Below are positions 18,078 to 29,400 of a stretch of 30,000 bases of DNA, in pieces. The stretch lies in contig JAHBMJ010002644.1 in assembly GCA_018398765.1 (NCBI GenBank), positions 33,784 to 63,783 on the forward strand, written 5' to 3'. The stretch comes from Chromera velia (taxonomy: Eukaryota; Sar; Chromeraceae). The stretch's first letter is position 1, and every line of letters starts with the position of its first letter. The notes under the pieces are model-generated. The model saw nothing but the letters and a program-made list of their open reading frames with translations, did no database searches and had not been told where the DNA came from. The translations under genes were made by a program, and so were the position numbers.

Positions 18078-19958
18078 TCAAATCACAACGTCGGAAATTC
18101 ATCGCAGTAGTCACGACACCAACACGATCAACACAACAAAAAGAGAGGGAATGGGGGGATCTAAGCAAGCATGACGAAGACGCCCAAACTTGGAAGGTTG
18201 TACCTCGAAGCACAGAAAGTGAAACGAAAAACAAAAAAAACAAAACCAGCAGAAGCGAACAAGACAAACAAGAAGAAGAGAGAAAGGCTTCTACAGAAAG
18301 AACGCTCTTCCTCCGTCCTGTTCTTTCTTTCCAAGATTCAAACAGTCAGCCAAACGCCCACCGTGATCGGCGCATTGTGCCACTTGAAATGAGCCATCGC
18401 TCCAGCCCTGCAGAACAAAAGAAATTCAAAAACAAGGACTTGTTCAGGGGGCTGATGGACACAATGAGAGAAGGCGAACATGAAGCTCTTCCTCCCAGAC
18501 GGACGGGTTTTCTTCGTACGTCACGTCTAGATCAAGCAAAACACAAGAAGTGCTTTCAGTGGCCAGAAAAAAGGTTTCTCCCCCCCATCTTCCATCCACC
18601 TGCCTGTGTGTCTGGCTTCTGTTGTGACTGGTGGGCGAGGCGCAGAGAAGTGTGGCGCATGAATGCACTTGCCACGCAACTTTCTGTCTCTCGGTCTGAT
18701 AAATAATTTCCTGCCTGTCTGTCTGTCTATTATCTGTCTGTCTGTCTGCCTGCCTGTCTGTCTATCTGTCTGCCTGCCTGCCTGCCTCTCTTACTGACTG
18801 ACTCCAGGTTTCGGACGTCGAAGACCTTGAAGGCCCCCTCGTCCCCCCCCGTCAGGAGGAGCTTCCCGTCTAGAGGGTGCCAAGAGAGGACGTTCACATC
18901 CGCAGGGTGGGCGTCCTCGATCTGTACGTACACAAAGAGGGGGGAGATGGGGAGGGAGAGAAGGAGAATGGGAGAGGGCATTGGTGGCTGATTGACTTGT
19001 CTTGCATACGCTGTACGGGCATGTGCGTGTGTGTTTCTCTTGTTTTCATTGTCTGTGTCTCCTCCCCGATTTCCCCCCCCCCACCTGTGTGTGCGTGAGA
19101 GAGAGCCCATATCTGTGAGCGAGTGACTCTGCTCTGTCAGTACGAGGGTGGAACCAGAGGCACCAGCGCAGAGAAATACACACACACAGTGTGGCAGGCA
19201 TTCAGGCATATGTAGAAGAAAAAACGTGGAGATGGAGAAGACTGACCTTCAATACAGACTTCTTCTTCCTCCTCACATCCCAAAATCTGTAGGGAAGGTA
19301 TTCACGCATTGGAGGGGAACAGTCGGGAAAACGTGGTAGGCGAAGAAATGCGACAGTTCGCTCTCTCTGCCTGTCTCTATTCCTGTCTCTGTGGCTCTGC
19401 GTTATTGTTTGTCTTTCTTCTTATCTGTCTCTGTCTCCATTCATGCTCAGTGCGATCAATCCACTGTCAGCATTGAAGAGAACCTTACTGACGGAACCAG
19501 GAAGGAAGAGAAAGGGGGGGGCGACAAAAAAAAAAGGTCCAACGAGTCGAGTAAGAATGCTCATTGAGTTACAAAAAAACAGAGAAAGCAAAACCTGAAG
19601 ACAGGGAAAAGCGATAAAACGGGGAGAATAAAGCAAGAGGTCAAACAGATCAATTTAGATACAGTGAGAATGTGAAACCCAACGGCTCACCTGACAGATC
19701 GATCAACAGAACACGAAGCGAAGACGTCCCCTGTTCCCTCGCCCTCTTTCTTCCACTGCACAAAGCAAAGCCAGAAAGAAGAGATGGTGAGACGAGGGAA
19801 CTATGAGCAACACGGACACTCCACAAAAGACAGGTAGAGTAGGGGGATTCTTCATCTTCCTAAAGCAAAATCAGCGGCCTCTCCGCTGCATGTGTTCAGA
19901 TGTTTCTTTCAGCCAAGTCTTCAGCACCACGCGAATGAACTGTTTGTTTTTCCATATT

Positions 19959-21122: not shown

Positions 21123-23639
21123 ACTCTCACCCACCCTGCTTATCGAGCCTCTCCAGATGAGCCTGCAGGTCCCACACCTGTACTCTTCCCGTGTCTGCCC
21201 AGGTGGCCACCACGAAGGGCAGCTGCTTCATCGATCTGATCCTGTTCACACCTCCAGGATGCGCAATCACTCGAAAGTCCAAAATCGCATCATCGTCTGT
21301 GCCTTCCTCGTCCTCGTCTTCGTCATCGCTCTCGTCCTGCATGCATCCGTCATCCCTCCCTCCATGAGGATAGATCCTTCGACAAACCCCAAATCAAGTG
21401 TGCAAAAAGAGTCGCTGCACTCACATGAGAGGGATAATGACAGCCAGTGAATCTCCGGATGAAGAGACAAAGACGAAGACGGCCAGAAGAGAAAGACGCA
21501 GTGACAACAAGAAGAAAAGGAGGACAGCCCACCCATTCACTCACACACCCATGCATCCACTGACCTCCCTGTCCTCTTCATCAATCCCATCGTGCTTCGT
21601 CTTGTGCAGCTTGTGCCATTTCATCACGTAGATGCGATTCCTGTAAGTGGTTTTGTTTTGTAACCATCGATCAGATCAGTCCAAGGAAGCGAAGGAAGAA
21701 ACGGAGAAGGGAACTGGCTGTCTCTTTTTCAGGTACTCACACACAAAAAAGCAAAGCCCGCGAAAAGAAAAAAACAGCAAAGCTTCCCTGGCAAGGTCAT
21801 CAACCCACTCGCGGCCTCAAATTCCCAACCCCAGGTAGACAGACAGGCAGACAGACAGGCAGACAGACAGACAGACAGGCAGACAGACAGACAGACAGGC
21901 AGACAGACAGGCAGACAGACAGGCAGACAGACAGACAGGCAGGCAGACAGACAGACAGACAGACAGGTAGACAAACCAACCGACCTGTCATGTTCGTCTG
22001 CCTGAGTTCCTGCCACCACAGACAGACAGGCAGGCAGACAGGCAGACAGACAGACAGGCAGGCAGACAGGCAGACAGACAGACAGACAGGTAGACAAACC
22101 AACCGACCTGTCATGTTCGTCTGCCTGAGTTCCTGCCACCACAGGCAGGCAGACAGACAGACAGACAGATAGACAAACCAACCGACCTGTCATGTTCGTC
22201 TGCCTGAGTTCCTGCCACCACGTACGCTGTGTGGGGAAATTTCTTTCGTGCCTGCAAGAAGGGAGACAGAGAAAAAGCGTTACAAAAAGCATCTTCTCCT
22301 TTCCTTGTCCTTTCAGAAACCAAAATCCATAGAAGGGACAATTCTTTGCATCCGAATACATTTGTTTCGAGGAAATCAGCAGGGAAGAAGGGGAGGAAGA
22401 AAGGGAGGAAAGAAGGAAGAGGCCAGCGGTCATCCATCCTCACGGAGGTAGAATGAAAAAGAAGCATTCGCATTCGACATGAGTCAGACTAACCGCTCCA
22501 AGAGTGTCTTGGAGGATGTCGAAGGAGAGACAGGGCCACTCCACCGTCGCCCTGTGCAGCATGTCATACGCAGTCGGATCGTAGTCGAGCTCCTCTCCTG
22601 CACCGCATCGCACCACAAAGAAAAGAAGAAACGGTTCCTGCTCGGTTCTGTCTGTGATGAATGTTGGCAGGAGATCACTTTGGTATCCGTCTCCATAAGT
22701 GAGGGAGGGAACTCCCTGCTTTGAAAACTGCAAGGCTGTCTTTTCTTGATAAGGTGATCATCACTCTTCGATGGCAAAACAAAAAACACCATGCCTGGCC
22801 TGACCATCTTCTACCCTGTCGATACCCGGTCGGAACACCTTTTTCGGTTCCTGCAATAAGAAGCAGCGAGATAGAGATGACAAACACACAGACAGGAAGA
22901 CCGGCAGTACTGTAGAGATGCAGGCAGGAAGACAGATTGGAAGACGGTCAGGCAGGCAGGCCGTTGGGAAGTCAGGAAGTCAGTGAGACAGACGAAAAGG
23001 ATGAATGACAAGCACGAAGCCACGCAGCCAAGGCATAAATGGAGCAGAACATCGTCGAATGGGGGGGTTAGAAGAGGAAGGGAACGCTTCCTTCTCAAAG
23101 GCACCGAATCGATGTCTCATCAAATCACGTCACCCACCCACCCACCCACCTCCCCCCGGAGCCCCGCTCCCTCCCCCTTTTCCTCTCCATCAGCTGAATG
23201 GAAACACACGACCCACCCTTCCTAACACTCTCTCTCACCCCCGCCACCCCCTCCCTTTTGCAGACTGACCACATCTTCCATATCTTCATCCCGCCCCTCC
23301 TCCTCGTCTCCGTCTTCGTCCCCATTCCCGTCAACTTCCTCGTCCTCAATCACGTCTCCAAAGGGATCCTCAAACGGTCCAATGTCCTTTTCCTGCAAAT
23401 ACACACACAGATGGCATGTGTGGGGGAAGCGGGGCGAGTGGGGAGCTGAGCAATGCACTTCTTGCCAGACTGCACAAGAAGCTATGGTGTGCCTGAAGTG
23501 CAAGGCGACTGACGTCCCCAAACTCCACATTGTTCTTTGCCTCGACGTGACTCCTGGGAAGAAAACCCAGTTTTGAGTCTACGTCCGTACGCTTTGCCCC
23601 CTGGTCAGTGGAGGCGTTGCGGTCTCGCTTGCCACTCAT
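17380..23639 (-). CDS. GRWD1: Glutamate-rich WD-repeat protein, GRWD1/Rrb1 family, 17 exons
   Basis: A nucleolar histone/ribosomal-protein chaperone family needed for 60S ribosome assembly. I joined exons 23639-23514, 23392-23270, 22850-22805, 22597-22494, 22251-22187, 21640-21565, 21336-21135, 20926-20882, 20502-20378, 20067-20026, 19755-19691, 19286-19247, 18921-18803, 18407-18362, 18032-17973, 17793-17640 and 17549-17380. All junctions have GT...AG ends and keep frame, giving 535 residues (human about 446, yeast Rrb1 about 511). Acidic stretches lie at about residues 43-83 and 181-200. The H4-binding-like N-terminal segment (CAF1C type) spans about 84-155 and contains EELDYDPTAYDMLHRA, WPCLSFDILQD and AYVVAGTQA. 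WD repeats follow: HSGEGFAMDFNPSVTG, SVEDVQW to SVRFWDVR, AHPADVNVLSWHP to FKVFDVR, and FKWHNAPITSVDWHP to VSLWDLSVE. The family C-terminal block PPQLLFLHQGQTDVKEVKWH ends exon 16. The start is the first ATG before exon 1. The last exon is least certain: its sequence matches the family poorly and other acceptors exist. Confidence 0.9.
18050..18077. repeat. (GA)n forming the pyrimidine tract of an acceptor
   Basis: On the minus strand this is a CT run ending about 18 nt before the acceptor of exon 15. Confidence 0.9.
18716..18788. repeat. CTGT/CTGC tetranucleotide repeat in intron 13 of the GRWD1-like gene
   Basis: Variant CTGT, CTAT and CTGC units ending about 15 nt from the donor of exon 13. 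Confidence 0.9.
19961..19997. repeat. (CT)n in intron 10
   Basis: An uninterrupted CT run; on the transcribed minus strand a GA run about 28 nt downstream of the exon 10 donor. Confidence 0.95.
20069..20124. repeat. (CA)n next to the exon 10 acceptor
   Basis: On the minus strand a TG-rich run that ends directly in the acceptor TGTGCAG of exon 10. Confidence 0.95.
21095..21122. repeat. 28-bp homopolymer C
   Basis: An unbroken run of 28 C, on the minus strand 28 G, starting about 12 nt past the exon 7 donor of the GRWD1-like gene. Confidence 0.95.
21834..22220. repeat. CAGA/CAGG minisatellite with three identical 50-bp units
   Basis: A tract of CAGACAGACAGG-type repeats fills much of intron 5 of the GRWD1-like gene. 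It is interrupted by three identical 50-bp units at 21969-22018, 22092-22141 and 22171-22220. On the minus strand each unit encodes most of exon 5 (VVAGTQADEHD) and carries the donor AG/GTCGGT. Only the unit at 22171-22220 is attached to the rest of the exon and its acceptor at 22252. The spacings between units are 123 and 79 bp, as expected from repeat-driven duplication. Confidence 0.9.
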
Positions 23640-26472: not shown

Positions 26473-29400
26473 TTGTGCATGTGCGTGCTTCTGCTGATCA
26501 TTTTCGAAAAGTTCTGCGTGAACAATTTTTGAATCTTCCCCTCCTCATGTCCTCCCTTGACCCGTGGTGGAGTTTTTTCTTGACGTTTCTCTTCGATTTG
26601 GGTCCTGCAACTTTTCTCCTTCCTGCCTGCCTGCCTGCCTTCCCTTCCTTCCTTCTGTTTTTTGTGCAGAGCTGAAGATGGGAACCGGAGGCGGAAGTCC
26701 ATCCTGGAGACGGCCGGTGGGTCTCTTCGCTCTTCCTCTTTCTCCCTCTCGCTCTTGCTCTTTCTCTTGCTCTTTCTCCACTCTCTCTGTTCTCGCTGTC
26801 TCTTTTTTGCCGGAGTCACCTGTCCTCCGCCTCTCTCTGCTCTGTCCTCTCTCTGTCTGTTGTGCTGAGATGCATGCACACATTACATTTCATGTGGAAA
26901 TACTTTTTGGTGGAGATGCCTGCTGATTTGTCTCTGCCTCTGTCTCCGTGCAGGCGTCCGGCTCTCGAACAAGCACGTCCTGAAGCAGATGACAAAAACG
27001 AGAGCCAGGGTGGTAAGTTGGTTGCGGGTTAGAAAGGGAACTGAGATTGGCGGTGACCTGCGGGAAAGGGGAGGGAAAAGAGTGCCGTACCTCTTCTTTG
27101 CTGTGCGTCCTTTTTCCTGTTTTTTCTCTTGCTTCGCTAGTGCATCTGACACGGTTTATGCTTTTCGCTCCGTTGAGACCCTGTGTCTTGCATCCACAAC
27201 CCTCCGTTCAAGCCTGTACAGTCTTTTTTTCTGCGATTCGAAAGCCCCTGCGCTGTTCTGTGCTGTATGTATTTTGCCCCTTCGTGTTGCTGTGCGTCCA
27301 TGCATGCAGGACCCTTCGTTCAAGCCCGACGGGAAGCCTGACATCGTCGTCAGCAGCGACGACGAGAGCAAAAAGCCCAAGGGAATGGGTATGNGAGTTT
27401 TTTCTTGACGTTTCTCTTCGATTTGGGTCCTGCAACTTTTCTCCTTCCTGCCTGCCTGCCTGCCTTCCCTTCCTTCCTTCTGTTTTTTGTGCAGAGCTGA
27501 AGATGGGAACCGGAGGCGGAAGTCCATCCTGGAGACGGCCGGTGGGTCTCTTCGCTCTTCCTCTTTCTCCCTCTCGCTCTTGCTCTTTCTCTTGCTCTTT
27601 CTCCACTCTCTCTGTTCTCGCTGTCTCTTTTTTGCCGGAGTCACCTGTCCTCCGCCTCTCTCTGCTCTGTCCTCTCTCTGTCTGTTGTGCTGAGATGCAT
27701 GCACACATTACATTTCATGTGGAAATACTTTTTGGTGGAGATGCCTGCTGATTTGTCTCTGCCTCTGTCTCCGTGCAGGCGTCCGGCTCTCGAACAAGCA
27801 CGTCCTGAAGCAGATGACAAAAACGAGAGCCAGGGTGGTAAGTTGGTTGCGGGTTAGAAAGGGAACTGAGATTGGCGGTGACCTGCGGGAAAGGGGAGGG
27901 AAAAGAGTGCCGTACCTCTTCTTTGCTGTGCGTCCTTTTTCCTGTTTTTTCTCTTGCTTCGCTAGTGCATCTGACACGGTTTATGCTTTTCGCTCCGTTG
28001 AGACCCTGTGTCTTGCATCCACAACCCTCCGTTCAAGCCTGTACAGTCTTTTTTTCTGCGATTCGAAAGCCCCTGCGCTGTTCTGTGCTGTATGTATTTT
28101 GCCCCTTCGTGTTGCTGTGCGTCCATGCATGCAGGACCCTTCGTTCAAGCCCGACGGGAAGCCTGACATCGTCGTCAGCAGCGACGACGAGAGCAAAAAG
28201 CCCAAGGGAATGGGTATGACAGAGGTCGCCACCGACATCCCTCCCGGATCCCAGAGGAAGCTGCTGAGACAGAGAACCGCACAGCAGAGAGGAAAGGAAT
28301 TGAGTTTTGCACCAAACAAGCAGAAGACAGGAGGTATTATGGGAAGAGGACACACGATGGTGAACATGGGCAATCCCGACTATGCCACCATCAACCCGCT
28401 GGCAAAGAAGGTGCGTGCATGTATGGCTCCATCTTTTTTTTGGTTGCATGGCCCCCATATCCCCCCCCTGATTTATCTTCTCCCTCCTGTTCTGGTTCGT
28501 TATTGGAACACCGTCACACTGCATTGCTTTTTGGGTGTGTCTCTAGCTTCCCTCGCTCTAGGTCAGTCGACCCTCTTGTTTGTTGGCAGGCTGTCTCATA
28601 CCACTTTCCTACGTACCAAAATCTCGTTGTCTGTGCGTCTGCCTGCCTACCTCTCTTCCTCTCTCTGTATTGCAGATCATGCCCGCAGGCGACTCAAAGG
28701 ACCTTAGGGAGAACCCGATGCCCATGAACTGGTGGCAGCTCTTCCAGGTTTGTCCTCCTCCTCCTCCTCTTATGAGGATGCATGGATGAACGAACGCAGA
28801 GAGTGCCGGCGTTGGTTGTGTTCTTCGTACATTTCCAAAAGAGAGTTCGAAGGCTTTTTTTCTGTTCTCTCCAAAAAGTGGACAGGGTTGAAGAATTTTG
28901 GGGGTGTCCTCTCCGCGTCCCTGGGTGGTCTTTTTGTGTGTTTTTGTTTTTTTTCATTTTGGAAAAGGAAGCGAGCGCCTTGTTGACCGGGGGGGATGAT
29001 TACCGCAGGGTTTCCATCTCTCTCCTCTGATTTTACTGGGTCGAAACGTTCTTTTCTTTTGGGTTTGTTTCGTGCTGATACATGTGAAACGACGTGCGTT
29101 GAAAACTGTACTGTGGCGAGTCTGCAGGCAGTCGAGTGCGTGCGTCACGCCCCCCTTCGCGTTGTTGCTGGAGGTCTGTGCCGCGTCTTCTTTCGGTGCA
29201 TTTTGAATATTTGACTTTTTTTCTCCGTTCCGTACTTGCCCCCCTCCTTCTGTTCGAGGAGTGTGAGAACAGAGACAGAGGCAGAACCTGCAATTCAAAG
29301 AAACAGTGGGAAGAGCGCTCCTGGCAGTTTCCCCACTCCCCACAAGGCAAACCTCTGCAGCTTTAATGTGACCTCCACCGATCTTTTTTCCCTTGGTGTT

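Follow-up and report, generated by a model that had tools for sequence, protein, structure and literature searches.

A splice donor and the adjoining exon end occur in three identical copies among tetranucleotide arrays in a WD-protein gene of Chromera velia

In a conserved WD-protein gene of Chromera velia, the assembled sequence presents one splice donor three times in a row, raising the question of how the extra copies arose, which donor serves the message, and whether the copy number belongs to the chromosome or to its assembly. We analyzed a 30,000-nt stretch of contig JAHBMJ010002644.1 (hereafter the window, meaning this whole stretch, numbered from its first letter), in which the gene and its repeat units lie on the minus strand. 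The model of exons 1–6, drawn up manually on the basis of reading frames and splice signals, runs from the ATG at 23639 to 21565: exon 1 (23514..23639), exon 2 (23270..23392), exon 3 (22805..22850), exon 4 (22494..22597), exon 5 (22187..22251; 65 nt, ARKKFPHTAYVVAGTQADEHD plus the AG of R), the acceptor AG of intron 5 (21641..21642), and exon 6 (21565..21640).

The spliced protein, including exons up to part of exon 9, aligns with positions 2–69 of 69 of PF12265 (CAF1C_H4-bd) at 63.9 bits, exceeding the curated cut-off of 22.7, and the spliced exons 4–6 match this domain in full. A PDB search recovered 21 distinct solved-structure sequences, each RBBP4, RBBP7, CAF1, Mis16, or histone acetyltransferase B subunit 2. 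Judged by its sequence, the gene is of the RBBP4/GRWD1 type, which upholds its initial annotation as a conserved WD-protein gene; the subfamily label GRWD1, a name suggested by the GTQA motif and an acidic N-terminus, is a candidate. A search of the genome returned five exon matches, every one at this locus, and the gene is therefore treated as single-copy at that search depth; with one gene locus found, a paralogue was rejected as the source of the copies. The donors at 23513, 23269, 22804, and 21564 read GTCAGT or GTCAGG (four of the six in the hand-built model, none of which is GTAAGT), possibly a splice-site preference of the organism. A second CAGR/YCTG array lies at 18711–18791, directly after a likely donor of the same gene, GTAAGAGAGGCAGG; the scan for exact repeats showed no non-simple repeat of at least 30 bp there. 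As a side observation, the light-harvesting family gave 58 matches in the genome, and for two light-harvesting frames the PDB offered no sequence of close identity.

The tract at the exon 5–intron 5 border is built on a 52-bp unit present three times with no mismatch between copies, as read from the one available assembly. Copy 1 (22170..22221) comprises 35 nt of exon 5 and 17 nt of intron 5, with its donor G at 22186; copy 2 (22091..22142) has its donor G at 22107 and carries a TGA at 22113–22111 in the read-through frame of exon 5; and copy 3 (21968..22019) has its donor G at 21984. These donor positions are those that had been estimated beforehand, and the claim of a triplicated donor is borne out, with CAG|GTCGGT standing at the same point in each copy and the 35 nt upstream identical for all three donors. 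Both spacers between the copies are pure YCTG: spacer 1 (22142..22169) has seven units with the C/T code TTTTTCC, spacer 2 (22019..22090) has 18, and a third YCTG array (21840..21967) follows copy 3 on its 3' side. Copy-to-copy spacing is 79 bp and then 123 bp. The duplicated core is, more strictly, 51 bp, since in copies 2 and 3 the outermost G also belongs to the array. The initial annotation's statement that the unit holds most of the exon falls short, the share being 34–35 of 65 nt, or about half, together with 17 nt of intron. Only copy 1 belongs to a real exon, in line with the claim that the exon's acceptor precedes the first copy alone.

Chance origin is no concern for an exact 52-bp triplicate. 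When 89 bases of the region were searched against the organism's own genome (4040 contigs, 177.8 Mb), just these three places matched; a dispersed element was rejected on the grounds that no further copy was returned. The perfect identity itself had been correctly noted and had been taken to indicate recent duplication, a conclusion that it supports poorly, because zero differences over about 102 compared sites (an arithmetic bound from the unit lengths) only place neutral divergence below about 3%.

What the three donors would yield is decided by frame. When donor 1 is joined to the acceptor at 21641, the frame is kept and the domain is complete (exons 1–6 match PF12265 from 2 to 69 at 65.2 bits). 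Donors 2 and 3 read through the repeat, as had been proposed, and add 79 and 202 nt; both offsets equal 1 modulo 3 and shift the frame, so that the product matches PF12265 only from 2 to 56 (49.1 bits) before it stops. The products of donor 2, donor 3, and intron retention all end at the TGA in copy 2, after 179 residues. Being out of frame and meeting this TGA, the later donors provide no coding alternatives in the assembled allele, and the idea that they serve as backup donors was rejected for the same reason. Copies 2 and 3 were also considered as small cassette exons. Every AG in 22186–21961 falls within a unit copy, the YCTG spacers having none, and in each of the two copies the choices tested were 25, 17, 13, and 0 nt long. 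The first three all shift the frame, and the cassette role was rejected on that account; with the zero-length choice (AG|GT, at 22107 or at 21984), it is preserved and the message is unchanged.

Neither the sequence nor the predicted structure around the donors singles one out. Since all three are identical over the unit, sequence does not favor donor 1, and donor recognition in this organism looks ordinary, given that ACTTACCTG is read near the 5' side of the genome's best U1 match (79.3 bits, above the family cut-off). The array is complementary to the exon end (CAGGCAGAC...ACAGG). In fold predictions with 60 shuffles, the mean unpaired values of donors 1–3 were 0.13, 0.21, and 0.13, versus 0.30, 0.29, and 0.31 with shuffled spacers; the observed value was equaled or undercut in a fraction of 0.05, 0, and 0.017 of the shuffles, respectively. 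All three donors are thus predicted to be more hidden than with shuffled spacers, and similarly so. The outcome varies with the length folded, donor 1 reaching an unpaired value of 0.51 when folded at ±80 nt. Because the effect is alike for the three donors and depends on folded length, folding picks no donor, and RNA structure was rejected as the selector. Considering the frames and the domain, donor 1 is most likely the donor used.

We then asked whether arrays elsewhere in the genome show similar architecture. CAGR arrays are abundant (4811 + 5423 overlapping 32-mer matches); a reversed-pattern control (3057 + 3380 matches) was discarded as background, since reversal does not stop a pure CAGA array from matching. 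Merging matches less than about 300 bp apart into array places, we sampled 20 small regions, which took in 21 of the 23 places among the matches listed and left out two; the matches listed were the first in contig order, so the sample is not random. Non-simple segments repeated between arrays were found at four of the 20 other loci (L035, L037, L042, and L047), the repeat at L047 being weak and nearly simple. Scores of at least 34 were reached by 10 of 79 within-locus pairs, three of these ten coming from the present window, versus none of 1937 between-locus pairs; at a score of 28, the counts were 13 of 79 versus 2 of 1937. L035, L037, and L042 are compound arrays in which islands of roughly 20–56 bp, of varying divergence, stand between CAGR/YCTG tracts; those at L035 and L037 have diverged, and those at L042 are nearly exact and could in principle be an assembly product themselves. 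These loci, L047 weakly so, resemble the present tract in having a non-simple segment repeated between CAGR/YCTG arrays; here that segment is an exon end with its donor, whereas theirs were compared as arrays alone. Given the repeated islands at these four loci, the copying process looks general rather than peculiar to the WD-protein gene, and the exon end was probably captured by accident; it may be this capture that is unusual. A larger sample comprised 21 pieces and 230,000 positions, window included, some of them N; six pieces from the same contig were counted for N, which came to 18,241 in three of them, and the other 14 fetched pieces went uncounted. Exact non-simple repeats of at least 30 bp within 700 bp gave nine rows at four places in this sample; array-flanked ones were seen in this window only, but an array of at least six units was present in just four other pieces.

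The reading we favor, with a probability of about 0.72, is an incidental, repeat-driven duplication with donor 1 in use. A YCTG tetranucleotide array in intron 5, beginning 17 nt past the intron start, would have undergone slippage, template switching, or unequal exchange that duplicated adjoining DNA, thereby placing a copy of the donor and of the final 35 nt of exon 5 in the intron. We infer the order of events, like the copying mechanism, from the flanks. Copies 2 and 3 have a common junction, CTG|TGGTGG, and a common CTACCTG after the unit, and therefore look like sisters from a first duplication; copy 1 shows ACG|TGGTGG and CTATCTG. The spacer 1 code TTTTTCC recurs at the start of the third array after one extra unit (C-TTTTTCC), as expected if the unit and the array start were copied together. 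Accordingly, array and exon may first have been fused at a short GT overlap, with that copy multiplied in a later event. The extra copies would now be intronic passengers: the spliceosome would take donor 1 and yield the conserved protein, while use of donor 2 or 3, or of a small cassette exon from a copy, would give frame-shifted, prematurely stopped messages, the only silent step being the zero-length one at AG|GT within a copy.

The copy number could instead be an assembly product, as it comes from one assembly: the segment would have been repeated when gaps were closed or the graph was resolved across the array, at a locus that truly has one or two units. A 74-bp exact repeat, the longest in the tract, spans copies 2 and 3 (at 21948 and 22071), and 71-mers consequently repeat inside the tract. 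Passages of PMC4501334 describe a Chromera velia genome that was built with velvet (k = 71) and gap filling and is rich in low-complexity DNA; if that assembly applies to the genome used here, its k was shorter than the repeat. The same contig also has an exact tandem duplication 4.3 kb from the tract, in which 26570–27393 and 27395–28218 agree at all 824 bp with a single N (27394) between them, probably an unmerged contig overlap left by scaffolding and thus a false duplication. That N is the only one in the window, however, and the tract has none; the two spacers are unlike in length and in C/T code, both flanks of copy 1 depart from those of copies 2 and 3, no k-mer of 75, 81, 91, or 101 bases repeats in the tract, and the diverged islands at L035 and L037 are not expected from an assembly fault. 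On balance, we regard an artefact as unlikely.

The remaining alternatives accept the copies and give them a role in splicing. In functional unproductive splicing, splicing would draw on donors 2 and 3 at a fixed rate, and their stopped messages would lower the protein level; the three identical donors and the TGA shared by both later-donor products and the retained-intron product fit this idea, as does the reported use of downstream repeat units as donors in human 6-16/IFI6 (in passages of PMC4526556). Arrays that have no known donor association nevertheless show similar architecture (genes were not sought there), and we consider such regulation very unlikely. Array length might also act as a splicing frame switch that turns the later donors from poison into a longer isoform and differs between strains. 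Among spacer 1 lengths of 4 to 11 units, 6 or 9 (versus the present 7) would bring donor 2 into frame without a stop, since a 51-bp core is combined with a spacer that lengthens in steps of 4, so that multiples of three units restore the frame; donor 3 lies a further 123 nt on, a multiple of three. We hold a switch of this kind to be highly improbable. Stepwise (recursive) removal, in which donor 1 would be joined to the AG ending copy 2 or 3 and rebuild the same donor with the message unchanged, agrees with the finding that, of the copy-derived choices tested, all but the zero-length exon (at 22107 or at 21984) shift the frame, and with AGGT duplication as the classical model of intron gain (in passages of PMC4974935). 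Against it, the 20 nt ahead of the AGs in the copies are purine-rich exon sequence and make a poor acceptor, leaving this the least credible explanation, with hardly any weight.

If the copy number is real, the locus offers a clean natural test of how the spliceosome chooses among identical donors 79 and 123 nt apart and possibly an early stage of intron change by tandem duplication. The tract further suggests that the tetranucleotide arrays of this genome can carry adjoining DNA along while growing. Among the literature matches listed, no case was closer than IFI6, which is not proof that none exists.

A minisatellite bearing several donors is already known in human IFI6 (6-16), whose transcripts, according to passages of PMC4526556 citing Turri et al., use two downstream repeat units as donors, with variants that encode isoforms; the 1995 report by Turri et al. 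of the 6-16 minisatellite with multiple splice donors is also cited in PMC2572611. As in IFI6, a tandem repeat at an exon end here places several copies of one donor in a row, each unit with its own. Unlike IFI6, where downstream units are reported in those passages to be used and to give isoforms, the later donors here are out of frame and run into a stop rather than coding on; moreover, the present unit is 52 bp, holds about half the exon, and has tetranucleotide arrays between its copies. Tandem duplication is also described as a source of novel introns (in passages of PMC4974935 and PMC2891723), the new intron and exon in PMC4974935 being backed there by reads and phylogeny. The present tract shares with these cases a tandem duplication over an exon–intron border that yields extra splice signals, and GACAG|GTCGG in every copy makes its duplicated segment AGGT-bearing, as that mode of intron gain demands; in contrast to the intron gain presented in those parts of PMC4974935, the copies here sit within the existing intron 5.
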